A stretch of DNA of 64,000 nucleotides, taken from Nitrospirota bacterium (GTDB lineage: Bacteria > Nitrospirota > Thermodesulfovibrionia > Thermodesulfovibrionales > SM23-35). Each line of letters starts with the position of its first letter. The stretch's first letter is position 1. Positions 8,109-30,219 of the stretch are shown piece after piece. The notes under the pieces were generated by a model. That model was not told where the DNA came from and ran no database searches. It saw nothing but the letters and a program-made list of their open reading frames with translations. Made by a program: the position numbers and the translations under genes. The stretch lies in the NCBI GenBank assembly GCA_013388455.1, contig JACAFF010000030.1, forward strand, positions 1 through 64,000. The letters are read 5' to 3'.

Positions 8109-9917
8109 TTGAACGCATATAGAAGTTTATTTGTATGGTTATTCATAGGAGTTCTGATAATACTCCTGTTCAATATAATAAGCTATCCGAAAAAAACTCA
8201 AGATGAGATGATATTTTCTGAATTCCTGAGCAAACTTGAGGCAGGACAGATTGCAGAAGTAACAATAAAAGGTTCTCTAATTAATGGTCAGATGAAGGAT
8301 GGTAAGAAATTCAGGACTTTTGCTATAAATGACCCAGATTTTGTAAAAACATTAAGGGCACAAAACGTAAAGATAACTGTCAAACCTGAAGAACAAAACC
8401 CCTGGTACTGGAATCTGTTCTTTTCATGGGGTCCGATAATTTTTCTTGTTGTTATATGGATATTTTTCATGCGACAGATGCAGACAGGCGGTAATAAGGC
8501 ATTATCTTTTGGAAAAGCAAGAGCAAAACTGGTTTCTGAAAAATCAGTTAAGATAACATTTGCTGATGTTGCAGGAATAGAAGAGGCAAAATTAGAGGTT
8601 CAGGAGATTATAGATTTTCTAAAAGATCCTAATAAGTTCCAAAAACTTGGTGGAAAGATACCCAAGGGAGTTCTGCTTGTGGGGGCACCAGGCACAGGCA
8701 AAACACTTCTTGCAAGGGCAATTGCAGGAGAAGCTGGGGTCCCGTTCTTTTCGATATCAGGTTCTGATTTTGTAGAAATGTTTGTAGGAGTTGGAGCTTC
8801 TCGAGTCAGAGACCTTTTTGATCAGGCTAAGAAAAATGCACCCTGTATTATTTTCATTGATGAGATAGATGCTGTTGGACGGCATAGAGGTGCGGGTTTA
8901 GGAGGAGGACATGATGAGCGCGAGCAGACACTCAACCAGCTTCTTGTTGAGATGGATGGCTTTGAGTCCAATCAGGGAGTAATTATCATTGCAGCAACAA
9001 ACAGACCGGATGTGCTCGACCCTGCTCTTCTCAGGCCTGGAAGATTTGACAGACAGGTTGTTGTGCCACAGCCTGATGTTAAGGGAAGGTTTGAGATACT
9101 AAAAGTGCACACGAGAAATATACCTATTGATGAAAATGTAAACCTCGAAGAAATAGCAAGAGGCACTCCTGGGTTTTCTGGCGCTGACCTCCAGAATCTT
9201 GTTAATGAGGCTGCATTACTTGCTGCAAGGAAGGCAAAGCTGAAAGTGGAGAAGTCTGATTTTGAATCTGCTAAAGATAAGGTTCTTATGGGTGTTGAAA
9301 GAAAGAGCATGATCATTAGTGATACAGAAAAGAAAAATACTGCTTATCATGAGGCAGGGCATGCTCTGGTTGCAAAGCTCACTCCAGGAACAGATCCGTT
9401 ACATAAAGTGAGCATTATTCCAAGAGGCAGGGCTCTTGGGGTAACTCAGCAGCTTCCAATTGATGATAAATACACGTATTCAAAAGATTATCTCCTAAAT
9501 GCCCTTACTGTGCTTCTTGGAGGTAGAGCTGCTGAGGAGATAGCCTTAAACCATATGACAACAGGTGCAGGGAATGACCTCGAGCGGGCAACTGAATTAG
9601 CCAGGAAAATGGTTACCGAATGGGGGATGTCAGAGAAACTTGGACCGCTTACATTCGGCAAAAAAGAAGAGCAGATATTTTTAGGAAGAGAAATTGCAAG
9701 ACATAAAGATTATAGTGAAAAAACAGCTATTGATATAGATGAAGAGACAAAGAAAATCGTAATTTATGCTTACAAAAGGGCAAAAAACCTTCTTTCTGAA
9801 AATAAAGACCTGCTTGATGCTCTGGCACAGGCGCTTCTCGAACAAGAGACAATGGATGCTGCTGAGATAGACGCACTAATCAAAGAAGTTGAATCCAGGA
9901 GAACCATAAAGGTTTAA
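8109..9917 (+). CDS. ftsH: ATP-dependent membrane zinc protease FtsH
   Basis: A 602-residue inner-membrane AAA+ protease that degrades unassembled membrane proteins and short-lived regulators. Two membrane helices flank a periplasmic domain (about residues 5-24 and 101-121). Walker A is GAPGTGKT (192-199), Walker [12 protein letters not shown], the second region of homology reads [20 protein letters not shown], and the zinc site is HEAGH at about residue 415 with a downstream Glu/Asp-containing helix. The start is TTG at 8109, preceded by AAGGAG at good spacing; no ATG fits the conserved N terminus. It stands alone as a plus-strand gene after rph. Confidence 0.97.
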
Positions 9918-10070
9918 GGATCAAAATTGATACTATAAAATATTAAGATTAATCATTTTAACAACAATTAGAATAATGCGGATGTTGTAAGAAAATTTTA
10001 AAGAAATTTCGAGCAATGTCTGCATTATTTGGGGTAGAGGCAAGATTTTGATTAAATAAGGAGGTCTTGG
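9918..10070. other. Intergenic region upstream of the thioredoxin-reductase-like gene
   Basis: About 150 AT-rich bases with a clear ribosome binding site (AAGGAGG) at the end. I see no convincing promoter or structured RNA. Confidence 0.4.
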
Positions 10071-11018
10071 ATGCAGGGATCTGATCATATTTACGATGTT
10101 GTCATTATTGGTGGAGGTCCAGCAGGACTCACAGCAGGACAATATGCATCAAGGGCTCAATTAAAAACGGTTATACTTGACAAATCACCGACTGCAGGGG
10201 CTTTAGCATATTCCAGCAGGATCGAAAATTATCCAGGGCTTACTCACCCGATAGCCGGGAAGGAACTTCTTGATATCATGAGAATACAGGCAATAAATTT
10301 TGGTGCTGAATACATAGAGACACAGGTAGTAGGAGTTAACTTTGCAGATGAAATAAAAGAAGTGATTACCATGAATAATGTATATATGTCTAAGACCGTT
10401 ATTATTGCTACCGGCTCAATGGGGAGAAAGCCAAGCATAGAAGGTGAGGGAGAATTCCTCGGCAGAGGAGTTAGCTATTGTGCTATCTGTGATGCAGCTT
10501 TTTACAGAGGATTAAAAGTATGTGTCATTGGTAATTCAGAAGAAGCTGTTAAAGAGGCGAAAGTTCTTACGAGATTTGCGGAAACTGTATATCTTATCTC
10601 TCCTTCACAGCAGATACACGGTGAGGATAAATCATTGTCAGAGATACCAAATTTAAAAGTAATGCTGGGTTATACAGTAACCTCGATTGAAGGAAAGGAA
10701 CTCGTTGAGAGAATAAAAATGTTTGATCCTAACAAAAATGAGGTTGATCTGGAATTGGCAGGTGTGTTTGTTTATCTCCACGGAAACAAACCTATAGTGG
10801 ATTTTCTATTCGGAGCTATCGAGACCAAAGAGGATGGCTGTATACCAGTAAGTCCCATGATGGAGACCTCGACCCCAGGAGTTTTTGCTGCAGGGGATGT
10901 TACCTGTACTGAAATCAGGCAAGTCGTTGTTGCAGCATCACAGGGGTGTCTTGCTGCACTGTCGGCAGAGAAATATATTTCTAAGAGAAAAAGATATAAA
11001 ATGGACTGGGCAAAATAG
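10071..11018 (+). CDS. Thioredoxin-reductase-like flavoprotein with unusual second nucleotide site
   Basis: A 315-residue FAD protein. The N-terminal dinucleotide motif GGGPAGLTAGQYASRA, the redox pair in YCAICDAAFY (about residue 140) and the final FAAGDVTCTEIRQVVVAASQG are those of low-molecular-weight thioredoxin reductases. The NADPH domain is different: where the family has a glycine-rich GGGDSAVEEA loop and a later HRR motif that binds the NADPH phosphate, this protein has GNSEEAVKEA and SPS. It may therefore use another donor, as known for ferredoxin-dependent flavin thioredoxin reductases, or may have another substrate. No thioredoxin gene is adjacent. Fold and FAD binding are confident; the electron donor is not. 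Confidence 0.85.
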   Translation: MQGSDHIYDVVIIGGGPAGLTAGQYASRAQLKTVILDKSPTAGALAYSSRIENYPGLTHPIAGKELLDIMRIQAINFGAEYIETQVVGVNFADEIKEVITMNNVYMSKTVIIATGSMGRKPSIEGEGEFLGRGVSYCAICDAAFYRGLKVCVIGNSEEAVKEAKVLTRFAETVYLISPSQQIHGEDKSLSEIPNLKVMLGYTVTSIEGKELVERIKMFDPNKNEVDLELAGVFVYLHGNKPIVDFLFGAIETKEDGCIPVSPMMETSTPGVFAAGDVTCTEIRQVVVAASQGCLAALSAEKYISKRKRYKMDWAK

Positions 11019-11753
11019 CTATCTTTTTTTGTTTAAGAGACTGATGAGTTCCAGAGCATTTTTAGGTGCATAGCCGAATTCATCATTATTAAAATAAATA
11101 AAAACATCTTTTTTATTTTTTAATTGTGACCTTATAAATCGAGCATCCTGCTTTAATGCTTCTAAACTATAAGAACCTGAATATGTTCCGTTCATGCCGT
11201 GTCTTCTGATATATATAAAATTGGATGATAAAGGTAATTTTTTCAGAAATTCTGGATGATCAGCCATGCAGAAAGCAGCATTTCCTTTATCAAGAATAGA
11301 GGCGACTTTTTTGTTTATCCATGTCTTATTTCTGAATTCAAATACGTTTCTTATCTTATATGGCTTTAATATTTCAAGAAATTCTTTTAACCGTTCAAGA
11401 TCTGCGTTGAAGTTTGGGGGGAGTTGCCATAAAACAGCACCGATTTTTTCCTTTAACAGAGATGCTCTTGAAAAAAAAGCCTCTAAAGGTTCAGCACAAT
11501 CCTTCAATTTTTTCACATGGGTGATAAATCTGCTGCCCTTGAGTGAAAATATAAATTTTTCTGGAGTTGAAAAATACCATTTAGCAAAGGCTTCACGCTC
11601 TGGCAGATGGTAAAAGGTAACATTCAGTTCAACAGTCGATAGATGTTTACTGTAATAATCAAGCCAGTGATTTTTAGAGAGGCCCTCCGGATAAAAAATT
11701 CCCCTCCAGTGTTCATACATAAAACCACTACAGCCTATTTTTAGATCAGTCAC
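11019..11753 (-). CDS. DUF72 family protein (YecE-like TIM barrel)
   Basis: A 244-residue protein with the DUF72 pattern: KIGCSGFMYEHWRG.FYP at the start, the YYSKHLSTVELNVTFYHLP segment, FSLKGSRFITHVKKL, LWQLPPNF, and VFEFRNKTW. The family forms a TIM barrel and is widespread, but its reaction is not established. The C-terminal YIYFNNDEFGYAPKNALEL completes the domain, so the gene is intact. It starts at ATG 11753 and its stop abuts the stop of the convergent thioredoxin-reductase-like gene, with no space for a separate terminator between them. Confidence 0.9.
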   Translation of the reverse strand: MTDLKIGCSGFMYEHWRGIFYPEGLSKNHWLDYYSKHLSTVELNVTFYHLPEREAFAKWYFSTPEKFIFSLKGSRFITHVKKLKDCAEPLEAFFSRASLLKEKIGAVLWQLPPNFNADLERLKEFLEILKPYKIRNVFEFRNKTWINKKVASILDKGNAAFCMADHPEFLKKLPLSSNFIYIRRHGMNGTYSGSYSLEALKQDARFIRSQLKNKKDVFIYFNNDEFGYAPKNALELISLLNKKR

Positions 11754-11782
11754 TTATATATTATAGCATACTATCAGACATA

Positions 11783-13915
11783 CTATCTGCTTACTTTCAA
11801 AACTCCTTCGATCTGGACAATCTTTTGAATAAGTGTTAGAAGTTGGTTCTTATCTTTAACATCAAGTATGAAAATAATGTGCGCTTTTTTATCTTCTGTT
11901 GAACTTGCTTCGAGATGGCTTATATTTACATCAACAGAAGATATGACTGCACTGAGGTTTGCTAACATACCTGGCTTGTCAACAGTTTCAACAATTAATC
12001 GTGCTGATGATGTTGCATTCCCATCAGCTTTCCAATCAACCTCTACCAGTCTCGCATCGTCGAGAGCAAGTCTGTCAAGATTTGCACAGTCTTTTCTGTG
12101 AATTGTTACCCCTCTGCCTCTTGTTACAAATCCTATAAGTTTGTCTCCTGCCACAGGGTAACAGCATTTCGCTGTATGATACAGAACATTATCAACACCC
12201 TTTATTGTTATGCCTTTTTGTTCCTTTGGAATTTTTGTGACTTTTGTGACAAGAGGCTCCTCTGGAGGTTTTTCGGGTATTAGTTTATTGACAACCTGAT
12301 GAGCAGATAATTTCCCATAACCAATAAAGGCGTAAAGATCTTCTATCGACTGGATATTGAAAAAATTTAAAATTTTCTGCATCTCTTCAGACTTTACAAT
12401 AGAAAGGCTGAGATCATGCCTTCTGACTTCATTTTCGAAAAGCTTACTGCCCAACTCTATGCTCTGCTTCCGGTCCTCAGCCTTAATCCATTGTTTTATC
12501 TTGCTTTTAGCGCGTTGTGTTACAACAAATTTCAACCAATCTCGACTTGGATTTTGTGTTGGAGAGGTAATAATCTCAACAGTATCACCACTTCTAAGGG
12601 TATACTTCAAAGGAACAATTCTGTCATTTACTTTGGCTCCTACGCATCTATTACCAACTTCAGTATGAATACTGTATGCAAAATCTACAGGACTGGAACC
12701 TATTGGCATCTCTTTTATTTCTCCCTTTGGAGTGAATACATATATGACCTCAGGTTCAACTTCGCCTTTCACTGCTTCAAGGAAGTCACTTGCATCTACA
12801 AGGTCTCTCTGAGCCTGTATAATATCCCTGAGCCAGGATATATATTTATCACTTTTTTCATCAATCCTGCCCTTTTCCTTGTATCTCCAATGAGATGCTA
12901 TACCATGTTCTGCTACCATATGCATTTCCATTGTCCTTATCTGAAATTCAACTCTTTCACCTTTTGGCCCGAAAACAGTTGTATGAAGAGATTGATACAT
13001 ATTTGATTTAGGGACGCCAATATAGTCTTTAAATCTTCCAGGTATAGGGGTCCATAAAGAATGAATAAGGCCGAGTATTGCATAGCAGTTTGCTTTGGTA
13101 TCTGTAATGATTCTCAATCCGAGCACGTCGTGAACCTGCTCAAAGGTTATTTCCTGTTTTAGCATTTTTTGATAGATGCCGTAATAATGTTTTATTCTCC
13201 ATGATACAGTGCCAGGTATCCCTTCTTCCTTAAGCTTTTTTACAATGAGCTCCGAAACCTCTTTCAGATATTGTTCCTGTTCCTCTTTTCTTTTTGCGAC
13301 CTTTTTAACGAGGTCATTGTAAAGTTCGGGTACCAGATGCTTGAAACTGAGGTCTTCGAATTCTGTCTTCAACCAGCCGATACCAAGTCTATTTGCAAGG
13401 GGAGCATATATTTCAAGAGTCTCTGATGCAATCCTCTGTTGCTTATTTTCTGGAAGATGCTTAAGTGTTTGCATATTATGCAATCTATCAGCGAACTTTA
13501 TCAGTATAACCCTTATATCTTCTGACATTGCGAGGAGCATCTTTCTGAAGTTTTCAGCCTGTTCTTTTTCTCTTGTTGCGAATTCAATCTTGGAAAGTTT
13601 CGTTAGTGATTGAACGAGAAAAGCAATCTCTTTTCCGAAAAGATCTTTTATATCTTTCACTGTTGTATCAGTATCTTCGATGGTATCATGAAGGAGACCT
13701 GCTGCAATGGTTGCAACATCCATCTTCATATCAGCAAGTATTGAAGCAACTGAAAGAGGATGCTCTATATAAGGTGAACCCTCTATTCGCCTCTGGCTAC
13801 AGTGAGCTTCACTTGAAAAAAAATATGCGCGCTTTAAAATCTCGATATCTGCGTCAGGATTGTAGGAAGTGACTTTTTTGATAAGGTTGTCAATAGTTAT
13901 GGGTTTATCTTCCAT
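11783..13915 (-). CDS. relA: Bifunctional (p)ppGpp synthetase/hydrolase (Rel/SpoT family)
   Basis: A 710-residue stringent-response enzyme. The HD hydrolase domain is intact (YIEHPLSVA, then GLLHDTIEDT with the metal-binding HD, residues about 40-90). The synthetase domain follows (about 230-340) with RFKDYIGVPKSNMYQSLHTT and QIRTMEMHMVAEHGIASHW. A TGS domain (IYVFTPKGEIKEMPIGSSPVDFAY) and a C-terminal ACT domain (about 635-710) complete the long Rel layout. The presence of both active sites and single copy in the window fits the bifunctional Rel type of most bacteria outside gamma-proteobacteria. It lies 26 bases downstream of recJ, in the same direction, so may belong to a secD-secF-recJ-rel transcript. 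Confidence 0.95.
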   Translation of the reverse strand: MEDKPITIDNLIKKVTSYNPDADIEILKRAYFFSSEAHCSQRRIEGSPYIEHPLSVASILADMKMDVATIAAGLLHDTIEDTDTTVKDIKDLFGKEIAFLVQSLTKLSKIEFATREKEQAENFRKMLLAMSEDIRVILIKFADRLHNMQTLKHLPENKQQRIASETLEIYAPLANRLGIGWLKTEFEDLSFKHLVPELYNDLVKKVAKRKEEQEQYLKEVSELIVKKLKEEGIPGTVSWRIKHYYGIYQKMLKQEITFEQVHDVLGLRIITDTKANCYAILGLIHSLWTPIPGRFKDYIGVPKSNMYQSLHTTVFGPKGERVEFQIRTMEMHMVAEHGIASHWRYKEKGRIDEKSDKYISWLRDIIQAQRDLVDASDFLEAVKGEVEPEVIYVFTPKGEIKEMPIGSSPVDFAYSIHTEVGNRCVGAKVNDRIVPLKYTLRSGDTVEIITSPTQNPSRDWLKFVVTQRAKSKIKQWIKAEDRKQSIELGSKLFENEVRRHDLSLSIVKSEEMQKILNFFNIQSIEDLYAFIGYGKLSAHQVVNKLIPEKPPEEPLVTKVTKIPKEQKGITIKGVDNVLYHTAKCCYPVAGDKLIGFVTRGRGVTIHRKDCANLDRLALDDARLVEVDWKADGNATSSARLIVETVDKPGMLANLSAVISSVDVNISHLEASSTEDKKAHIIFILDVKDKNQLLTLIQKIVQIEGVLKVSR

Positions 13916-13941
13916 AACATATTATACAATTTTATATTTAA

Positions 13942-15663
13942 TTACTGGCTTGGTCTGATAGCCTTTAAATGTAATTGAAGGCTCCTGTTTCCCTCCCACT
14001 CGTTAATATGAGGTGTGAATACAGCATCAACAATATTGGAACCTGTCAACTGCTCACAGTATGAACCCATATCGAAACCTATTGCATCAAGAGACTGATT
14101 TTTCTGTTTAAGTTTCATTTTTAGGTGATTATTCCCGACTATTCTGGGGTATATTATCTCGAGTCTTTTCGAGCCGAGTAATGGCTCAGAATTTCCAGTA
14201 CCGAATGGCTCGAGCATTGTTAATTCTTTCATTAATTGCGAACTGATATCAGAAAGATTTACATCCGCGTCTATTTCGAGAAGCGGGATAAGGTCTTTTT
14301 CTGTAAGGATTTCTTTTGCAATTTTATTAATATGTTCTTCAAAATCTGGAATTTTTTCAGCCTTTATTTCAAGACCAGCAGCTTGTTTGTGTCCACCAAA
14401 TGCTGTAAGATAATCATTGCATCTGGTGAGAGCTTTGTGAATATCAAAAGAGGGTATGCTCCTTGCTGAACCTCTGGCATAAGAACCTTCAATAGAAAAA
14501 AGAATAGCAGGCCGAAAAAAAGCCTCTGTAATTTTTGACGCAACGATTCCTATAACCCCTCTATGCCATCCTTCTGAAGACAGAACGATAACTGGATTTA
14601 TCCCTTTTTTGTTTAGTAAGTGCATTGCTTCTGTATAAATGGCTTCTTCAATCTGCTGCCTTTCTTTATTAAGCTTTTCGAGCCATAGAGCTATATTCAT
14701 TGCCTCTTCATCAGAATCAGTCAGAAAAAGCTTTATTGCATCATTCGCATCAGATATTCTTCCGCATGCGTTAATTCTTGGAATCAAGGTGAACAAAAGA
14801 AGGCTAGCTTTTAAATCTCTCTTATCAATCCCTGAGACCTGTTTCAGTGCATGTAATCCCGGGGTGCCATTTTCTATAAGCTTTAATCCTTCTTTTACAA
14901 TGACTCTGTTTTCCCCGGTAAGTGGGACGACATCAGCAATTGTGCCGAGTGCTGCAAGAGCTAAAAAATCATAAATACTGAAAGATGAATTTTTAATATT
15001 TGCAAAAGCCTGGGCGAGCTTAAATGCGATGCCTGCACCTGAGAGATTGAAGACGGGAGATTGAGAATTTGAGATTTTGGGATTGATAATAGTTAACGCA
15101 TCTGGAAGTAAAAAGTCATCATTCGTTATCTTATCATCTTTATTCTGGCTTCTGAATGGTTCATGATGGTCTGTTATAATTACATCGATGCCTTCTTCCC
15201 TGCATAAGGATACTGTTTCCACTGAAGTGATTCCGCAATCAACAGTGATTATCAAAGATGCCCCTACTTGATTGGCATATTGTATTGAATATGGTTTAAA
15301 GCCGTAGCCATTAATCATCCTATGAGGAATTATGTAATGAGTATTTATACCAAGAGCTTTGAGTAATTTAAGAACAATCGCTGTTGCGGTTATTCCATCA
15401 GCATCATAATCACCATGAACAAGGACTGTCTCATTCTGGTCAGCAGCTTTTAAAATCCTGGTAACTGCTGTTTCCATGCCATTGATAGTAAAGGGATCAG
15501 AAAGTTGTGCAAGATTGGGATTTAGAAAAGAGATTATCTGCTCCGGAGTTTTTATTGATCTGTTTATTAAGATTTGTGCAAGGACAGGAGATACAGAAGA
15601 TGACCTCGAGAGATACTTTATATATTCTGGGTTTGTTCTATTTACAAACCATTGCCTGTGCAT
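13942..15663 (-). CDS. recJ: Single-stranded-DNA-specific exonuclease RecJ
   Basis: A 573-residue 5'-3' exonuclease for recombination and mismatch repair. DHH-family metal motifs are present: VHGDYDADGITAT, ITVDCGITS and ITDHHEP, followed by ALGTIADVVPLTGENR, and the DHHA1-type motif SEGWHRGVIGIVASKI then GSARSIPSFDIH and FGGHKQAAGL. The C-terminal OB-like domain carries LEPFGTGNSEP. All motifs are in frame, and the length is normal. It is between secF and rel on the minus strand, with a perfect hairpin just upstream of the start at 15676-15694. Confidence 0.95.
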   Translation of the reverse strand: MHRQWFVNRTNPEYIKYLSRSSSVSPVLAQILINRSIKTPEQIISFLNPNLAQLSDPFTINGMETAVTRILKAADQNETVLVHGDYDADGITATAIVLKLLKALGINTHYIIPHRMINGYGFKPYSIQYANQVGASLIITVDCGITSVETVSLCREEGIDVIITDHHEPFRSQNKDDKITNDDFLLPDALTIINPKISNSQSPVFNLSGAGIAFKLAQAFANIKNSSFSIYDFLALAALGTIADVVPLTGENRVIVKEGLKLIENGTPGLHALKQVSGIDKRDLKASLLLFTLIPRINACGRISDANDAIKLFLTDSDEEAMNIALWLEKLNKERQQIEEAIYTEAMHLLNKKGINPVIVLSSEGWHRGVIGIVASKITEAFFRPAILFSIEGSYARGSARSIPSFDIHKALTRCNDYLTAFGGHKQAAGLEIKAEKIPDFEEHINKIAKEILTEKDLIPLLEIDADVNLSDISSQLMKELTMLEPFGTGNSEPLLGSKRLEIIYPRIVGNNHLKMKLKQKNQSLDAIGFDMGSYCEQLTGSNIVDAVFTPHINEWEGNRSLQLHLKAIRPSQ

Positions 15664-15675
15664 TTAATCCTTAAT

Positions 15676-15694
15676 CGTAAAACGTGGTTTTACG
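15676..15694. other. Perfect hairpin between secF and recJ
   Basis: CGTAAAAC-GTG-GTTTTACG forms an 8-bp stem with a 3-base loop. In the direction of transcription it is followed by ATTAAGG and the recJ start, not by a T run, so it is not a classical terminator; it may affect recJ translation or stabilise the secF transcript end. Confidence 0.45.
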
Positions 15695-15701
15695 CTTTAA
15701 G

Positions 15702-16613
15702 CTATTTTTTAGCAAAAGGCCTTTTTCCTCCCCATAGCAGGACAATCGGACTAGAAATGAAAATTGAAGAATATGTCCCTACCATAATACCAATAATAAT
15801 AGCGAGGGCAAAATCATGTATAACTTCTCCTCCAAAGATGAAAAGGGCAAATGCAGTGAATAAGGTTGTCAGGCTCGTAATAATAGTTCTTGAAAGTACT
15901 TCATTAATACTCTGGTTTATAACAACGTTTACAGGGTCCCGATACCTGATTTTTAAATTCTCCCTGATCCTATCAAATACAACAACTGTATCAGTAAGAG
16001 AATAACCTGCAATAGCAAGAAGTGCTGAAACAATAACAAGATTTATTTCACGATTTAGGATGAAGAAGAAAGCAAGTACTGCAAATACATCGTGAAGTGT
16101 GGCAATCGTAGCTCCAATCCCGAATCTGAACTGAAACCTCCAAGCAATATAAATTAAAAGACCGATGGCTGCAGCCAAGATAGCCCAGAGGGCATCTTTC
16201 CTGAGCCTTTTCCCAACTTTAGGCCCTATCTCTGTTGTGGATTCAACAAAAATTTTTTGATCTGAATAACGCTGAGAAAGTATTGAGACTATTTTTTCAG
16301 AAGAACTGCCGAGGGTTTTCTCTTCCTTCTTGACTCTTATAAGAATTTTCTTTTCAACTGGCATATCCTGAAGGTCAAAGTCCTTAAGTCCACCTTCTTC
16401 AAGTGATTTCCTCACATCGTTTAAAAGAAAGGGTTTTTCAAACTTTATCTGTACAGCAGTGCCACCTGTAAAATCTATTCCCAGATTAGCCCTGCCTCTT
16501 GCAATCTGAACAATTGCAACAATTCCTATTAGAAAAATTATTCCAGAAAGTATAAAGGCATAGTATTTTTTGCCCATGAAATCAATATTTGTTTTCTTTA
16601 TAAGTTCTATCAT
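15702..16613 (-). CDS. secF: Protein translocase subunit SecF
   Basis: A 303-residue inner-membrane protein that with SecD uses the proton motive force to finish protein export. It has the first helix ([18 protein letters not shown]), the [16 protein letters not shown] motif, a periplasmic domain, and five C-terminal membrane helices with [10 protein letters not shown], the conserved cytoplasmic loop motif. The start overlaps secD by 4 bases, showing coupled translation of the pair. Length is normal for the separate-subunit form. Confidence 0.96.
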
Positions 16614-18232
16614 ATGCTCAGAGTCCTAAACTTTACCTTGCTGATTATAATATCAAAAATAGTTTTTGTTCCCACGAGTGCTGTAAAAAGATTTATGGCA
16701 ACGCCGAGACTTAAAGTAACAGCAAAACCCTTTATAGGGCCTGTGCCAAACTGGAACAATACTGCTGCTGTTATTAATGTAGTTACATGAGAATCGAATA
16801 TAGTCCAGAATGCCTTATGGTAGCCGGAATCAACTGCAGATGCAGGAGTTTTACCTGCACGTAGTTCCTCTCTCATCCTTTCGAACATCAATACATTTGA
16901 GTCAACTGCCATACCAATAGCCAGAATTATACCTGCAATACCTGGAAGAGTAAGGGTGGCATTAAGTGAAGCCATAGCTCCGAGAAGAAGAATTATATTG
17001 AGAACTAATGCAAAGTCAGCAATGAGACCGGACAATCTGTAATAAAAGATCATGAAGACTACAACTGCTATTGTGCCAATAATTCCTGCTATTTTGCCTG
17101 CATTTATCGAATCTCTTCCGAGTGAAGGACCGACAGTAACATTTTGAAGCATATTCAGAGGAGCAGGAAGAGCTCCAGCCCTCAAGACTATACTGAGGTC
17201 TTTAGCTTCATCTATTGTAAAGCTACCTGTTATCTGTGCATTACCTCCAGGAATTCTTTCCTGGATAACTGGAGCAGAGTAAACAGTATTATCAAGAATA
17301 ATTGCAAGCCTTTTTTTCACATTCGCAGCCGTTATCTCTTCGAAAAGTTTTGCACCTGCATTATTGAATGAAATTGAAACATATGGTTCATTGAACCGCG
17401 AGTCAATATTAACTTTAGCATCACTGAGTAAATCCCCTGTTAGGACAGCTTGCTTTTTAAGGAGGATTGGTATCTTCCTTATTTCCCCTGTTTCTCTATT
17501 TATCCTTTTCTCAAAAAGTATCTCATCACCTTCAGGAATTTTTCCGGCAAATTGCTGTAAAAATAATTCCTCTTCGCCAGGTATGATTGATTGAGGAAGT
17601 TCGGCTGCTATAGGAGATTCGTCGTCAACAATCTTGAATTCGAGTTGGGCAGTTTTACCAATTAGATCAATGGCACGTTTTGGATCTTTGATGCCAGGTA
17701 GTTGAATGACAATTTCGTTTTCGCTCTGTCTCATGATAGTTGGTTCTGCTACTCCGAATTGATCAATCCTATTGCGGATTGTCTCAAGAGCCTGATCAGC
17801 AGCATTATCCTTTATCCTTTTTACCTCTTTATCTGATATTTTGTAAACAAGGGTTCCCCCTTCCCCGATAAATGTTAGAGCAGGATAGTTCTCTTCAATC
17901 GTTTTCCTTATCTCAGGGGTTGACGGATTTATTTTGATTGTTAATCCGCTTACAGTTACATCCGCAGAAAGTTTTTTCTTTGTAAAAAGGTCTTTAAGTC
18001 CTGAAGCATATCTTTCAGTAGTTATCTCAACAGCCTTATCGCCCTCAACTTCAAATACAAGATGAAGCCCACCCTGAAGGTCAAGCCCGAGGATAATACC
18101 TTTATGTGGCATATTATTCTTCCACCATTCTGGCATGTATTTAAACAAAGGTGTATTAGGAAGGAAAAAGATGAAAGCAAGGATAATAGTTATGATTATG
18201 AGTATCAATCGCCACAGAATCTTTTTTTTCAT
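16610..18232 (-). CDS. secD: Protein translocase subunit SecD
   Basis: A 540-residue partner of SecF. After an N-terminal membrane helix ([17 protein letters not shown]) comes the [15 protein letters not shown] motif, a large periplasmic P1 domain with [13 protein letters not shown] and [11 protein letters not shown], and six C-terminal helices with [21 protein letters not shown] and FERMREELR. Order yajC-secD-secF on one strand is the standard arrangement. The gap to yajC is 12 bases. Confidence 0.96.
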
Positions 18233-24442: not shown

Positions 24443-25369
24443 TTATAACTGCAGTAAAGGGTATCCTTTTTCTCTGAGCATCTCGATAATTCCTTTTTTA
24501 CCTATGAGATGCCCGGCACCAACTACAACAAAATGAATTTCATTGGTTCTTAAAAATTCTTCTATTTTAGATGTGATGTTGCGGTTTCTTTCATAGATTA
24601 GTTTTTCATATATAGAAGACATTTTTCTGTCTTGCCACAGGGCTTTTGTAATAATAGTCTCTGTTGTTTTTATATCACCATTTGTCCATGCACTTAACAG
24701 CCTATCAGCATCCCTTTCAAGGAAATCTATATCTTTTAATGTATACAACAAGAATGTTTCCTGTTCCTGATCAGTAAAGTTAGACAGAAGATTTATTTGA
24801 TATTCTATACTTTCCAGTTCTTTTATCTTTTTATTGCCTTTAGCTTTTGAGAGAAAATGGATGTCGATACCTAAAGTTGGGTCGAAACCCAGTTGTATAA
24901 GTTTCAGGGAAGTTAATGTCAATGCCAGAAACCATGGTTTCTGTTTATTAACCAATAAGAGAGGAATACCCGAGAGTTCTAACTCCTTTCTGATGAGCTC
25001 ATAAGTCTCTTTTGATACATGATTTTCAAGTGTTTCATTCCCAGGATAGATAGCAGTTTCAATGACCTTTTGAAAGTCAATCTTAGTTAAATCATTAATA
25101 TTTGCCTCTACAGCTAATACATCAGATGATTCAAAGGCACGTTCAATTTTTTTGTTTAGAGGGTATGCCTCTTTTTTCATAAAGTGAATGGAACCGAGTA
25201 TGTAGACAGTATTTGTTTTTGATTGAACTTTCCATAAAAAGGTTTTCTGATTATCTGCAAAGGATTCTTTAATAATGACCGCTGTTGAGAAAAAAAGCAG
25301 GATGAAAAATATTGTAATATTTTTTTTAAGATATCTACTAATTATTCCTTTATGAATATTTACAGACAA
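24443..25369 (-). CDS. TraB/GumN family (Tiki-like) protein
   Basis: A 308-residue protein with an N-terminal membrane anchor or signal (ITIFFILLFFSTAVIIKESFA) and then the TraB/GumN fold: FLWKVQSKTNTVYILGSIHF, EANINDL near residue 100, and VVVGAGHLIGKKG at the end. The two G-x-x-H motifs (GSIH, GAGH) and the early Glu are the metal-site residues of the Tiki/TraB clan, some of which are metalloproteases. The mature part is probably outside the cytoplasmic membrane. It starts 49 bases after the peptidase-GNAT gene and could be co-transcribed with the RiPP-like operon, but a link in function is not shown. Confidence 0.85.
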   Translation of the reverse strand: MSVNIHKGIISRYLKKNITIFFILLFFSTAVIIKESFADNQKTFLWKVQSKTNTVYILGSIHFMKKEAYPLNKKIERAFESSDVLAVEANINDLTKIDFQKVIETAIYPGNETLENHVSKETYELIRKELELSGIPLLLVNKQKPWFLALTLTSLKLIQLGFDPTLGIDIHFLSKAKGNKKIKELESIEYQINLLSNFTDQEQETFLLYTLKDIDFLERDADRLLSAWTNGDIKTTETIITKALWQDRKMSSIYEKLIYERNRNITSKIEEFLRTNEIHFVVVGAGHLIGKKGIIEMLREKGYPLLQL

Positions 25370-25418
25370 TTCTATTTCTCTTTTATATCAAACAATATTA
25401 ACTTAATAAAATACATCT

Positions 25419-26417
25419 CTAATCTTCTATAAAACTTCTTGACATTATAATTCGGTGGCTATGTCCATGATGAGCTTCTTTTTCTAATTGTTCATCTAAT
25501 GCAGGAATCGAAATCTTTTTGAATCCCATTTTTTTATATAGGTTTATCGCAATATGATTTGTTTTAAAAACAAGAAGATTTACTTTATTTGCATTTACTT
25601 CAAACGCTTTATTGATAGCCATATGGAGAAGATTCTTTCCGATCCCTGCACCTCGATAGGGTATTCTTACCTCCATTCCAAAAAGCCACCAATCAGGATA
25701 AAGCAGGTTACCTTCATCAAACTTTAAAAGAGCTACAGAACCTACTTTTTTCTGTCCAATATATGCACAAATCTCGTAGTTGTAAATCATACTACTTTTA
25801 GATGCCATTTCAGATAAGCTGAAAGATTCTTTTAGCTTATTATCTAACAAAGCCAGGTCATCCACGATAACAAGATAATTAACTTTTTTACCTATCAATA
25901 TTTGTGCAAGTTTACGGTATAAACTAAAACTCTGAAAGAAACGAAAAATAAGAGATAAAAATTTTTTGAAAGTAAATACAAAATAAAGGCAGGAAGAACC
26001 TATTGGATATGTAATAAGCCATATGTGGGCTAAAAATTTGGAACCCCCTTTTTGTAAGTCTACAACATTCGAAGTCCGCCGTTGTTTGATAGCTTTTCCT
26101 ATGACCTGAGTGGTTGCGATATATTCTGGTGATCCAATTAGAGCATCTCCCCGTACTTTTAAGATTTCTGTATTACCGACTTTGGTTTTCCCGATAACAC
26201 GATGAACAACAACCCCATCATCGAGAGATTTGTAGAGGATAATGTCTCCTGATTTGAGTTCATTAGTACTGACAGGACCAACGGTAAGAATATCTCCATC
26301 ATGAATGAATGGATACATGCTCCAGCCATGGGCTTTAAAACTGAAAGAGCCACCCCGTCCTATAATTTCCTCAGTTAATACTCCCAGCTCATCTCTGTCA
26401 AGCCCTATTTCACGCAT
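25419..26417 (-). CDS. Signal-peptidase-like (S24/S26) domain fused to a GNAT acetyltransferase
   Basis: A 332-residue two-domain protein. Residues about 15-100 carry a serine peptidase core: FKAHGWSMYPFIHDGDIL with the nucleophile in the S-M-x-P motif, SGDIILYKS, and GVVVHRVIG, where His replaces the usual Lys as in SipW/ER-type signal peptidases. A hydrophobic stretch (about 130-160) may anchor it. Residues about 180-325 form a GNAT domain with the acetyl-CoA loop RGAGIGKNLL and INLYKKMGFKKI. The fusion sits last in a RiPP-like operon and overlaps the kinase-like gene by 13 bases. Leader removal followed by N-acetylation of the product is an attractive but untested role. Confidence 0.85.
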   Translation of the reverse strand: MREIGLDRDELGVLTEEIIGRGGSFSFKAHGWSMYPFIHDGDILTVGPVSTNELKSGDIILYKSLDDGVVVHRVIGKTKVGNTEILKVRGDALIGSPEYIATTQVIGKAIKQRRTSNVVDLQKGGSKFLAHIWLITYPIGSSCLYFVFTFKKFLSLIFRFFQSFSLYRKLAQILIGKKVNYLVIVDDLALLDNKLKESFSLSEMASKSSMIYNYEICAYIGQKKVGSVALLKFDEGNLLYPDWWLFGMEVRIPYRGAGIGKNLLHMAINKAFEVNANKVNLLVFKTNHIAINLYKKMGFKKISIPALDEQLEKEAHHGHSHRIIMSRSFIED

Positions 26418-27247
26418 CTTATGAAATCAATAATGCTTTTGTCTGGTATAAAACCTAATTCATAGCATCGTATAGTTTCAACAAGTTTAGCACAGAAATC
26501 AAGTGTAAATTGCATTCCATCAGATTCCCAATATGGAAGAAAACAGTGGGTTAAAAGCCTCAATGTAGCTGAAGAACCTTCCATCGGTGAAATATTATTT
26601 ATCTCTGCGTGATGTAAAAAAAAGATTTTATTTAGTGGCACACCATGAGGCGAAATTCCTTCATATTCTCCATGCCAGGGTGTCCCATATACCCATATAC
26701 GGCCTTCATTTTGCCGTAAAACAATGCGTTCGTCATTCAAAACAACCGCTTTATCTTCCCACAAACGTGCCATTGTAGTCTTTCCATTTGTTGAACTTCC
26801 AGGAAAAAGATATCCATTCCCATTATCATCAATACCACAGGCATGGACAAGAACTCCATAGCCCTGAGACAAAAGAGAAATCATTAATAAATGAAAGATG
26901 GGGAAAGCAAGTGGATGTGGTAAGATATCAGGAGATTCCCTCAGAACATAGACATCGCCATTTCGATAGTTAGGTTCAAAAACAGCTAAACAATATTGAC
27001 GATTATTATTAAAAGGTTCTTTTAATACAAAAACTTTTTTTATATCGCTCTTATAAACATCCCAAAATGTACCTGAATCAAAAACTTTGTTTTCAAGCTT
27101 AAGGTTTAAAAATTTATTTGAATAGTGTCCATATACTGTTATGTCTGGTTTATCATCAGATACAAATGGCTCATCAAATGCTTTAATTTTAAATCTATCT
27201 GAAGTTACAACTCCAAAAACAAAATCTGCAACTTTTAATCTATACAT
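26405..27247 (-). CDS. HPr-kinase-like protein of a RiPP-type operon
   Basis: A 280-residue protein whose second half has the HPr kinase/phosphorylase core: GVLVHACGI, the P-loop PGSSTNGKTTMARLW (about residues 150-165), VVLNDERIVLR, and a GTPWHGE segment. The first 130 residues are divergent. True HprK partners with the PTS, of which nothing is seen here. HprK-related proteins are known from lasso-peptide and other peptide-modification clusters, where PadeK-type members phosphorylate a C-terminal Ser of the precursor. Here the adjacent 60-residue precursor also ends in Ser. It could equally be a catalytically modified scaffold. The ATG has only a weak ribosome binding site. Confidence 0.8.
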   Translation of the reverse strand: MYRLKVADFVFGVVTSDRFKIKAFDEPFVSDDKPDITVYGHYSNKFLNLKLENKVFDSGTFWDVYKSDIKKVFVLKEPFNNNRQYCLAVFEPNYRNGDVYVLRESPDILPHPLAFPIFHLLMISLLSQGYGVLVHACGIDDNGNGYLFPGSSTNGKTTMARLWEDKAVVLNDERIVLRQNEGRIWVYGTPWHGEYEGISPHGVPLNKIFFLHHAEINNISPMEGSSATLRLLTHCFLPYWESDGMQFTLDFCAKLVETIRCYELGFIPDKSIIDFIRCVK

Positions 27248-27294
27248 AAATTTATTAACTTACAAAATTTTCTGAACCAGGAGATTTACCCCAA

Positions 27295-27477
27295 TTATGA
27301 GCGCCCTTTTTGATAGCAAGCCTGAAATCCTCTTTTACAGTTCTTTTCACCCGGGCCATTTTCTCCACCCCTCTTGCAAGTTTGTAACACTGCTTCATCT
27401 GACACTAATTTAACCTGTTCTATCTGTGGTTTTACATAATTCTTTCGTTCGAAATTAAATTCGGTTTTTCCTGACAT
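27295..27477 (-). CDS. Candidate RiPP precursor peptide
   Basis: A 60-residue peptide with the best ribosome binding site in the operon, AAAGGAGGTGAAAAAATT before the ATG. The N-terminal half reads as a leader: YVKPQIEQVKLVSDEAVLQ, the K-P-x-(I/V)-x-x-(V/I)-x-L-x-x-(E/D)-A-V-L pattern common in precursors recognised by PqqD-like domains. The core follows with three Cys (34, 47, 54) in two CKRG repeats separated by Gly- and Asn-rich sequence and a final CYQKGRS ending in Ser. It lies between the radical SAM and the kinase-like genes. No signal-peptide hydrophobic stretch. Precursor role is inferred from size, motif, expression signal and context. Confidence 0.8.
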   Translation of the reverse strand: MSGKTEFNFERKNYVKPQIEQVKLVSDEAVLQTCKRGGENGPGEKNCKRGFQACYQKGRS

Positions 27478-27494
27478 AATTTTTTCACCTCCTT

Positions 27495-28583
27495 TTAAAC
27501 ATTTATCAATCTAAATTTTTCTGCTCTTAAATGGGCGATATGGCATAAATAGTCAACTGGTCTTTCCGGGTCACTATTCTCAATTTGTGCCAACCCTGGA
27601 CACTGTCCGCACAATGCAATCAAGTTACAATTCCTACACAGAGTATCCTGAGAGAATTTTGTTGAAAGAACATCTGGAATAAAGCTATGCCATGCCTCTT
27701 TGAAAGAACCTCTTTGCAGGTCATAGCTTGGGACACGAGACATCATACACACACTCAATTGGCCATAAGGATCGATATGAAAGGTTTGAAGACCCGCTCC
27801 ACACTGATAAAGATAATCTGAATTAAAAGGTATCCCCAAAAACTTTCTGCAAAATTTTTGCCATTCCTCCATTCTCTTTTCGTCTGCAAAGTCAAGGGCA
27901 ACTATTTCATTAGGCGGTATGCGGAAATTGGCAGGCTTTTTATCACCATCTATCCTTAAATTTAAAACAGGGTCGAACCTGAAATCGATTCCTAAATCCT
28001 CAGCAAATTTTTTAATATCCCATATCTCATGCTTATTAATCGTCATCACCATTGTTTTAAGTTTTAAAGGTAATTTTCGTTCTATAAGCAAATCTATCCC
28101 ATCCATGCATCGTTTATGTGATCCGCTTATACCCGTAACATTTTCATAGGTCTCTTGTGTTAAACCATATAATGTAATTTCAATAGAATGAGGTGGCCAG
28201 TCTGAAAGATAGTCTGCAATATAAGGTGTTAAGAGGGTTCCATTAGTAAATAAAGTAATAAGTACCCCTTTCTTTTTTGCATATGTATAAATATCGAGAA
28301 AATCATGACGAATTAAGGGTTCACCACCTGTAATTAATAACCATAAGCAACCTTCATCCACAATCTGGTCTAAAATATTACAAATCTCTTTATAACTTAG
28401 TTCTTTATTTTTTGCTTTAATATCACTCGCGGGCAGATTAATATAACAATGAACGCATTTAAGATTACAGCGAGCAGTAATTTCTATGCTCCCATCAACG
28501 GGGATTCGTCGATTGGCTATTTTGTCAACAAGCCGATTACTGAATTCAGAGAGACTTCTTATGGGAATTACAGGACATTCCAT
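27495..28583 (-). CDS. Radical SAM/SPASM peptide-modifying enzyme
   Basis: A 362-residue protein with the radical SAM cluster motif ARCNLKCVHCYINLP (C-x3-C-x2-C, about residues 34-41), LLITGGEPLIR and LFTNGTLL, and a C-terminal SPASM domain (about 260-345) with CGAGLQTFHIDPYG, VCMMSRVP, LCRNCNLIALCGQCPG and a late Cys. SPASM domains bind extra 4Fe-4S clusters and occur in enzymes that install thioether or carbon-carbon links in peptides (PqqE, AlbA, SCIFF maturases). It begins 2 bases after the PqqD-like gene, and the candidate precursor starts 17 bases after it. The reaction on the Cys-rich core is not predictable in detail from the sequence. Confidence 0.93.
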   Translation of the reverse strand: MECPVIPIRSLSEFSNRLVDKIANRRIPVDGSIEITARCNLKCVHCYINLPASDIKAKNKELSYKEICNILDQIVDEGCLWLLITGGEPLIRHDFLDIYTYAKKKGVLITLFTNGTLLTPYIADYLSDWPPHSIEITLYGLTQETYENVTGISGSHKRCMDGIDLLIERKLPLKLKTMVMTINKHEIWDIKKFAEDLGIDFRFDPVLNLRIDGDKKPANFRIPPNEIVALDFADEKRMEEWQKFCRKFLGIPFNSDYLYQCGAGLQTFHIDPYGQLSVCMMSRVPSYDLQRGSFKEAWHSFIPDVLSTKFSQDTLCRNCNLIALCGQCPGLAQIENSDPERPVDYLCHIAHLRAEKFRLINV

Positions 28584-28585
28584 AC

Positions 28586-28894
28586 TTATAATGCCCTAAT
28601 AGCACCTATATGTTCTAATTGATTGATAAACTCGATGATATCTTTTTCCGCTACCTCAGGACTTACTTCAAATTCATTTAATATTATATCTATTATTTCT
28701 GAAAGGCTTTTTTCTCCATCAACAAGTTCCCATATACGGCTACCAACTTCGTTCATAGTATAAATGCTATCTACTTCATCAGCTCTCTTTTTTATTGGCA
28801 CTAAAATGAACTCTTCAGCGACCTTTCTGAAAACAACTGAAGAGTCTTTTGTGTAAAGTCTGTCGAGATTCGGGCCTGTATTCAATGTATTCAA
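28586..28894 (-). CDS. PqqD-like RiPP recognition element protein
   Basis: A small protein of up to 102 residues with the PqqD winged-helix fold: VVFRKVAEEFILVPI strand pair, YTMNEVGSRIWELVDG, SLSEIIDIILNEFEV and DIIEFINQLEHIGAI. PqqD proteins bind the precursor leader and present it to the radical SAM enzyme. There is no ATG; two TTG codons in a tandem nine-base repeat (28894 and 28885) are candidate starts, and an AGGA lies a few bases upstream. First gene of the RiPP-like operon behind its own promoter. Confidence 0.88.
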   Translation of the reverse strand: MNTLNTGPNLDRLYTKDSSVVFRKVAEEFILVPIKKRADEVDSIYTMNEVGSRIWELVDGEKSLSEIIDIILNEFEVSPEVAEKDIIEFINQLEHIGAIRAL

Positions 28895-28924
28895 TATTCC
28901 TGCCTTTTTAAAACTTATAAATAG

Positions 28925-28952
28925 ATTATAATTTAAAAGAGAAATTTTGCAA
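28925..28952 (-). promoter_or_regulatory. Sigma-70-type promoter for the RiPP-like operon
   Basis: On the minus strand TTGCAA is followed after 16 bases by a perfect TATAAT, ending about 30 bases before the first TTG start. It lies in the 62-base gap after the M48 gene, so the operon can be transcribed independently of it. Confidence 0.6.
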
Positions 28953-28956
28953 ATAT

Positions 28957-30219
28957 TTAACTGCTTAATTTCGGGAAATTCTCGATTTCTTTTATTCTTT
29001 GAATTACCGGTGGATGTGAATAGTAAAAAGCTGCATAGAAAGGGTGAGGATGTAGGTTTGAAAGGTTATCTATTGAAAGTTTTATAAGGGCGCTTTTAAA
29101 AGCCTCTTTGTCACCTGTGAGCTTGCATGCAAACCTGTCTGCCTCTTTTTCAAAGCGTCTTGAAAAGTAATTGCTGATTGGAAGAAAAGGAAGCGATATA
29201 ATGTTACCCATGAAACCGAGAAGAAGGACTTTTGTAAAGAAGGTCGCATTTTTAATCTGAAAAATATCTGTGAGAAAGTCAGCACTGAGAATTCTGAATG
29301 ATAGATAGATAGCTATAAATGCTAATGTCTCTGATGCAACGATCATTTTCAGAACATGTTTTTTCTTCCAGTGACCTGCTTCATGTGCCAGGATAGCAAG
29401 AATTTCATCGTGATTCATCTTTTCGAGAAGTGTATCGTAAAGTATTATTCTTTTAACTTTCCCTATACCTGTAAAATATGCATTGGTGTGACGGCTTCTT
29501 TTAGAAGCATCCATTTTAAATACGCTGCTGACCCTTATGTTTATTTTTTTCATCAAATCTTTAATTCTGTCTTCAAGCACTTTCTCTTCTATAGGAGAAA
29601 ATTTGTTGAAAAGTGGCTCTATGACATAAGGGGATATATACATAATGAATAGACTGTAAATGAGGAAAAAAATCCATAACCAGAACCACCAGATAGTCGG
29701 GCTTAATTGTATCAGCAGAAATCCTATAAAAAGGAGTATGCCAGTAATAACTGTAGAAAGTAATATGGATTTTAGAAAATCGGCAAACCATAACTTGATC
29801 GTCATGGTATTAAATCCGTATTTATTCTCAATTCTGAAAATATTATAGAGACTGAAAGGTATAGTGAGAAGAGTATTAGCATAGCTCAAGAATAGAAAGA
29901 AAAAAACACCTGATAAAATAAAACTGAAATTAAATGATGAAATCCAATCGTCATATATATTTAAAAGACCACCGAAAATAAAGATAATTGTAACTGCATT
30001 GCCGAAGATTGAAGAAATAAAACTGAATTTTGTTTTTTCAATTTCATATGCACGCATCTTCTGAACATGAGATTCATTTATTTTCCCCTTGAATACATCA
30101 GGAATGATTGAACCAAATCTTTTCATATACCCGAGATTTAAAAATTGCAGAGTATATTCAAAAGTTTCCTTCAAGATATAGATTATGAGTATGAGGTAAA
30201 TATTTTCTATAGCTATCAT
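28957..30219 (-). CDS. M48-family membrane zinc peptidase (Ste24-like)
   Basis: A 420-residue membrane protease. The zinc motif is ILAHEAGHWKKKH (about residue 275) and the third ligand Glu is in RRFEKEADRFAC. Several hydrophobic helices surround it, and the segment RHTNAYFTGIGKVKRIILYDTLL is characteristic of Ste24/CAAX-prenyl-protease type M48 members, which in bacteria act as membrane quality-control peptidases. The gene is intact. It is directly upstream of the RiPP-like operon in the same direction, so a part in peptide processing is possible, but a promoter separates them. Confidence 0.92.
   Translation of the reverse strand: MIAIENIYLILIIYILKETFEYTLQFLNLGYMKRFGSIIPDVFKGKINESHVQKMRAYEIEKTKFSFISSIFGNAVTIIFIFGGLLNIYDDWISSFNFSFILSGVFFFLFLSYANTLLTIPFSLYNIFRIENKYGFNTMTIKLWFADFLKSILLSTVITGILLFIGFLLIQLSPTIWWFWLWIFFLIYSLFIMYISPYVIEPLFNKFSPIEEKVLEDRIKDLMKKINIRVSSVFKMDASKRSRHTNAYFTGIGKVKRIILYDTLLEKMNHDEILAILAHEAGHWKKKHVLKMIVASETLAFIAIYLSFRILSADFLTDIFQIKNATFFTKVLLLGFMGNIISLPFLPISNYFSRRFEKEADRFACKLTGDKEAFKSALIKLSIDNLSNLHPHPFYAAFYYSHPPVIQRIKEIENFPKLSS

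Follow-up and report, generated by a model that had tools for sequence, protein, structure and literature searches.

In the accessible text of the papers cited here, a phosphorylated last residue of a RiPP is documented for lasso peptides (PMC9266682), whose precursor kinases carry a His-Lys-Asp-Asp motif (PMC9266682, PMC10368454). The target of PadeK is the Ser at the C terminus of its precursor (PMC9266682), and the related kinases LppK and BsfK modify Ser3 of the core, not the C terminus (PMC13381572, PMC10368454). A [Y/W]xxP leader motif is bound by discrete lasso and LPP RREs, and LppS, an SpI-like Ser-His-Asp peptidase, cleaves the YxxP leader with the assistance of the RRE (PMC13381572). 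The authors of RRE-Finder report radical SAM genes in the neighborhood of discrete RREs of a lasso-like type (PMC7470986); the word 'kinase' is absent from the accessible portion of PMC12710340, and no description of a radical SAM enzyme joined with a RiPP kinase was found in the accessible text of the open-licence literature.

The window analyzed here, a 64,000-nucleotide stretch of Nitrospirota DNA (GCA_013388455.1, contig JACAFF010000030.1, positions 1 to 64,000), contains what is probably a RiPP cassette making a radical-SAM-modified, C-terminally phosphorylated peptide. The sequences establish the precursor family, the conservation of its leader, Cys residues and terminal Ser, the association of the genes and the catalytic residues, and from these every chemical step and the role of the product are predicted.

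The cassette and its precursor peptide

On the minus strand, the cassette genes follow one another in the order PqqD-like RRE protein (28586..28894, 102 aa; PF05402, 2.5e-18), radical SAM/SPASM enzyme (27495..28583, 362 aa; PF04055, 1.1e-19; SPASM, 3.7e-4), 60-residue peptide (27295..27477, stop codon counted in the coordinates), HprK-like kinase (26405..27247, 280 aa) and an archaeal-type, S26/SpI-like signal peptidase fused to a GNAT acetyltransferase (25419..26417, 332 aa; TIGR02228, 3.4e-16, above its cut-off; Acetyltransf_1, 6.1e-14). Directly downstream lies a gene for a protein of the TraB/PrgY/GumN family (24443-25369), a family involved in peptide-pheromone control. The general features of a RiPP system, namely a small precursor, a conserved leader and an adjoining modifying enzyme and RRE, are all present.

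The peptide reads MSGKTEFNFERKNYVKPQIEQVKLVSDEAVLQTCKRGGENGPGEKNCKRGFQACYQKGRS and is the sole copy detected in the window genome. Its gene is preceded by the ribosome-binding site AAAGGAGGTGA (27485..27495, minus strand), an 11-base match to the extended consensus, compared with at most 5 bases at eight neighboring genes, the four other cassette genes among them, in agreement with the strong site described in the earlier note. The leader motif Y14-V-K-P17-Q-I19 (27421..27438) is of the [Y/W]xxPx[L/V/I] type that, in the accessible text of PMC13381572, is bound by discrete RREs. The probable core runs from Cys34 to Ser60 (27298..27378), its predicted cut point perhaps lying up to four residues earlier, and includes the conserved Cys34, Cys47 and Cys54; Ser60 (27298..27300), the C-terminal residue and proposed phosphorylation site, is the only Ser or Thr of this core.

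Using the radical SAM protein as query, we retrieved 37 loci (L031-L067) from other genomes of the order and seven further public contigs, with two further matches (L068 and L069) excluded for matching the radical SAM core only. A homologous short ORF is found in 35 of the 37, the exceptions being L047, in which the contig ends just past the radical SAM gene, and L060, which has a divergent enzyme. In an alignment of 37 precursors, Pro17, Leu24 and Cys47 are invariant, Glu28, Cys34, Lys35 and Cys54 are nearly so, and the leader conforms to a Y/W-x-x-P motif followed by EE-A/V-V/L-L. The earlier note had read the peptide as a RiPP precursor with a leader, tied to the SPASM enzyme, and had named as grounds for refutation the lack of homologous ORFs in relatives or the loss of the Cys residues; since homologous ORFs exist and the Cys residues are conserved in the alignment, this reading holds. 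All of the sequence features that it listed (Cys34, Cys47 and Cys54, CKRG at 34 and 47, KPQIEQVKL, EAVLQ and the GRS end) are present. The idea that the CKRG repeat and Cys-x-x-Gly spacing reflect a crosslinking logic is not supported, because conservation is limited to the C-K at Cys34. The homologues have neither the second CKRG nor the spacing, and the repeats were therefore rejected as a functional motif.

A profile of the 37 peptides matched 39 of 176 genomes of the order, 63 of 395 sampled genomes of the phylum and 30 of 297 genomes of the phylum of the Acidobacteria locus and, in the sets around the Myxococcales, Desulfobacteraceae and Chloroflexota loci, 2 of 235, 8 of 247 and 10 of 251 genomes, where each count contains its own center genome and part of the matches were opened and read. 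Pfam and NCBIfam scans of the precursor and its relatives returned no family.

The C-terminal residue and the HprK-like kinase

To keep the reading of the tail free of circularity, we restricted the model to the leader (window residues 12-35) and then read off the tails of the matching ORFs. With identical tails merged, 81 distinct ORFs (E<=1e-4) terminate in Ser (70), Thr (9) or Phe (2), such that 79 of 81 precursors, which are not independent because of shared ancestry, end in Ser or Thr. For comparison, the terminal residue of 21,039 further short ORFs from these loci is Ser in 10.3% and Thr in 4.5% (together 15%), and Ser makes up 11.4% of the remaining positions in the precursor cores. 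Many loci had entered the set through precursor searches; in the subset retrieved by the radical SAM protein, a choice blind to the precursor, the 36 distinct precursors end in Ser (33), Thr (2) or Phe (1). Nine loci that we label Nitrospira-type, by resemblance, encode a diverged precursor whose last residues are RPS, RAS or RLS, with Ser in 12 of 12.

Only in L067 (3997-4170) does a precursor that looks intact lack a hydroxyl residue at its end (WGPF). L147 holds an orphan ORF that ends in Phe, with no cassette within 14 kb; this ORF is entry L131 of the leader-model set and is counted there as one of the two Phe rows. Both L147 and L098, the latter with a precursor-like ORF ending in WGAG and its radical SAM gene in pieces, look degenerate.

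The kinase is encoded in 54 of the 56 loci that hold both the radical SAM and PqqD genes, duplicates (L152, L155 and L158) having been removed beforehand, and the two loci without it, L061 and L084, are truncated by contig ends. Its catalytic residues are strongly conserved among 57 relatives, with His in 57, the P-loop Lys in 57 and Asp in 56. The sole kinase with Glu at this otherwise invariant Asp is that of L067, whose precursor ends without a hydroxyl residue; the paired change is fitting, though seen once. In the window kinase the motif closes with Asp-Glu, Glu standing in for the second Asp as it does in many relatives. No Pfam family matched the kinase at E 0.1, its NCBIfam matches (ScmC, 2.1e-7, and HprK-related models) are all below cut-off, and a sequence search of the PDB gave no meaningful match. 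The predicted structure (mean pLDDT 89.1) has fold matches to PEPCK, ranked first, and next to HPr kinase/phosphatase (1knx); in one fold search, HPr kinase was not among the 50 matches listed.

The nearly universal terminal Ser fits the neighboring HprK-like kinase, as judged from the sequences. Given that Ser60 is the sole Ser or Thr of the window core, it would be the target if the kinase acts on a core Ser/Thr. The terminal Ser could have another use, for example as an export or protease signal.

Radical SAM enzyme, presumed leader peptidase and variation between loci

The CxxxCxxC motif is present in 79 of 79 radical SAM relatives, and the seven SPASM Cys residues are invariant in all eight sequences compared. 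The modeled enzyme (mean pLDDT 76.0) has SkfB as its top Foldseek match and also matches SuiB, PqqE, anSME and others; these fold neighbors are a mixture of sactipeptide, C-C crosslink and cofactor enzymes, and the fold does not distinguish between their chemistries. Cores contain three Cys in 75 of the 81 leader-model ORFs and two in the other 6, and no conserved acceptor residue is evident in them. From the presence of Cys, a thioether may be guessed as the bond made.

An aromatic-x-x-P motif is found in 80 of 81 homologues (Tyr in 66, Trp in 14), and the precursor leader is, by its motif, of the lasso/LPP RRE-binding type. The best NCBIfam model for the PqqD-like RRE is the lasso-peptide PqqD chaperone, with a score below its cut-off. 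The S26 peptidase is encoded in 47 of the 56 loci with radical SAM and PqqD genes, and its relatives (n=52) retain Ser in 52, His in 50 and Asp in 51. From a by-eye alignment with the LPP leader, we infer that the leader would be cut after DEA29, an alternative being just before Cys34. In L063 the S26 domain is fused to GNAT, as in the window, and in L140 to NTP_transf_5 instead.

Of the 56 loci, 23 encode a peptidase of the C25 (gingipain) family. Its ORFs reach 2,888 residues and are always on the strand of the cassette, mostly directly upstream of PqqD; Pfam agrees with the identification in five of five tested. The C25 gene as a general part of the system was ruled out, as it occurs in these 23 loci and not in the window operon. 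A C25 search of the window genome found none, an absence that is weak because the same search was silent in control genomes too. In L079 the cassette contains a giant C25-family ORF (8393-17095, 2,888 aa as called), beyond which, at 17285, lies another copy of the precursor. Each of the nine Nitrospira-type loci has three radical SAM ORFs, and NTP_transf_5 is found in 9/9 (Pfam-tested in L134 only). In L134 (3850-10224) PqqD, three radical SAM ORFs, precursor, kinase, NTP_transf_5 and S26 occur together, none reaching an NCBIfam cut-off. Some loci adjoin a BBP2_2 porin and genes that by eye look like polysaccharide chain-length genes, recalling the capsule-locus setting reported for LPP in the accessible text of PMC13381572.

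The window cassette site (24443-30219) lies between M48 and TraB/NYN/PAP2 genes. Four relatives of the same family (L080, L085, L091 and L094) have a cassette between the same M48 and TraB genes, inverted and bearing C25. In L209 M48 adjoins NYN and the cassette is absent, and in L211 the site holds only a 69%-identical PqqD. A radical SAM tree, computed without L097, L098 and short pieces, places the window with L061 and L063 (support 0.909), apart from these four loci. It looks as if the site was filled on more than one occasion, which suggests repeated replacement.

Proposed pathway and relation to described systems

By analogy, the best reading of the pathway is a paeninodin/LPP-like phosphopeptide route to which a radical SAM enzyme is added. 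The PqqD-like RRE would bind the leader via YxxPxI and pass the precursor to the enzymes, among which the radical SAM/SPASM enzyme would alter the core, most likely at the conserved Cys residues, with a thioether as the first guess. The HprK-like kinase would phosphorylate the C-terminal Ser60 on its hydroxyl, and the leader would be cut off near DEA-VLQT-C by the SpI-like Ser-His-Asp peptidase, whose fused GNAT domain may acetylate the peptide once it is released.

Other readings explain parts of the same evidence. That the ORF is a chance reading frame, to which its short length and lack of a Pfam or NCBIfam family might point, is hardly conceivable, as it is kept in the same position in dozens of loci and its ribosome-binding site is strong. 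The excision from the core of a small peptide-derived redox cofactor would draw on the pairing of PqqD with a SPASM enzyme, which is the plan of PQQ and mycofactocin, and on PqqE as one of the fold matches of the radical SAM enzyme; we regard it as very improbable, since what is kept is not one short motif but several Cys spread along the entire core, together with a fixed C terminus, and NCBIfam cofactor models score far below cut-off. The complete SPASM Cys set, the two or three Cys of every core (three in 75/81, two in 6) and the top rank of SkfB would all be expected of a plain sactipeptide- or ranthipeptide-like system, the chemistry suggested in the earlier note, in which thioethers are made from Cys and the kinase is regulatory or acts elsewhere. 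Such a system is unlikely here, however, given that the kinase accompanies the cassette in 54/56 loci, a hydroxyl residue ends 79/81 precursors, no conserved acceptor residue is evident and the RRE is a separate protein.

Another reading takes the cassette as a radical-SAM-bearing branch of LPP/paeninodin, in which phosphorylation, perhaps followed by nucleotidylation or glycosylation, would matter most and the radical SAM enzyme would only decorate the product. The RRE, YxxP leader, HprK-like kinase and SpI-like peptidase are common to both, as is NTP_transf_5 in some loci, and by eye a Glu stands two residues ahead of the presumed cut in each. We nevertheless hold this branch to be quite unlikely: the loci were retrieved by their radical SAM gene or precursor, the nine Nitrospira-type loci carry three radical SAM ORFs, the remainder of the LPP leader consensus is missing, and 'radical SAM', 'rSAM' and 'SPASM' are absent from the main text of the LPP paper as accessible (PMC13381572). 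A bolder extension, which we offer as doubtful, is a new RiPP class, spread over several phyla, of radical-SAM-modified peptides in which the C-terminal Ser would be (poly)phosphorylated and then serve as a handle for NTP_transf_5 or a similar enzyme joining it to, or capping, a surface polymer, and in one large branch of which the peptide would be paired specifically with the giant, secreted, operon-encoded C25 peptidase, as its inhibitor, pro-piece or substrate.

The kinase plan of the phosphorylated lasso peptides recurs here alongside radical SAM enzymes, in relatives that belong to Nitrospirota, Acidobacteria, Desulfobacteraceae, Chloroflexota and Myxococcales. If radical SAM modification joined to C-terminal phosphorylation is correct, it would link two RiPP tool-kits and define a precursor family where Pfam and NCBIfam had no model. 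The core, with one Ser/Thr and three Cys, would make a minimal test substrate, and why C25 peptidases travel with these peptides would become a question. The parts of the cassette are known; the accessible text of the open-licence literature searched contains no description of their combination, of the precursor family or of the link to C25.

Filing the cassette under LPP, lasso, Scm or sactipeptides was considered and none was accepted, LPP, lasso and Scm each failing on a defining feature. Like sactipeptides and ranthipeptides, the cassette has a SPASM radical SAM maturase that would act on a Cys-containing core, but it differs from them in its discrete RRE, its kinase, its fixed terminal Ser and a core without an acceptor pattern. 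With SynChlorMet (Scm; TIGR04248-04251) it shares PqqD, a ScmC-like kinase and a radical SAM/SPASM enzyme in one cassette; the Scm models score far below their curated cut-offs (30.6/125, 34.3/100, 85/400 and 75.5/400 bits), in L134 they stay below them too, and no publication under the SynChlorMet name was found in the open-licence literature. The likeness to paeninodin-type lasso systems (PadeK, ThcoK) extends to the discrete RRE, the W/YxxP leader and, in the accessible text of PMC9266682, the His-Lys-Asp kinase and highly conserved C-terminal precursor Ser, and a C-terminal precursor Ser beside a cognate kinase gene is what the window holds; among the nine window proteins scanned there is no lasso cyclase or B2 cysteine peptidase, and a radical SAM enzyme is found instead.

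The scan of nine window proteins showed neither the NTP transferase nor the MsbA-like exporter of LPP; genes of the NTP_transf_5 type, which occur in paeninodin and LPP clusters, are seen here in L140 and in the nine Nitrospira-type loci. The homologues share only the YxxP part of the LPP leader consensus YxxPxVLxHQxIxFETxxS. The window nonetheless unites an RRE, an HprK-like kinase and an SpI-like peptidase in one cluster, and in the accessible text of PMC13381572 the LPP systems of Bacillota resemble it in their discrete RRE, [Y/W]xxP leader, HprK-like kinase and SpI-like Ser-His-Asp peptidase. Unlike LPP as described there, the cassette has a radical SAM/SPASM enzyme, fixed core Cys residues and another leader consensus, and it occurs in other phyla; and where LPP is phosphorylated at Ser3 of the core, the present cassette instead has its C-terminal hydroxyl fixed.
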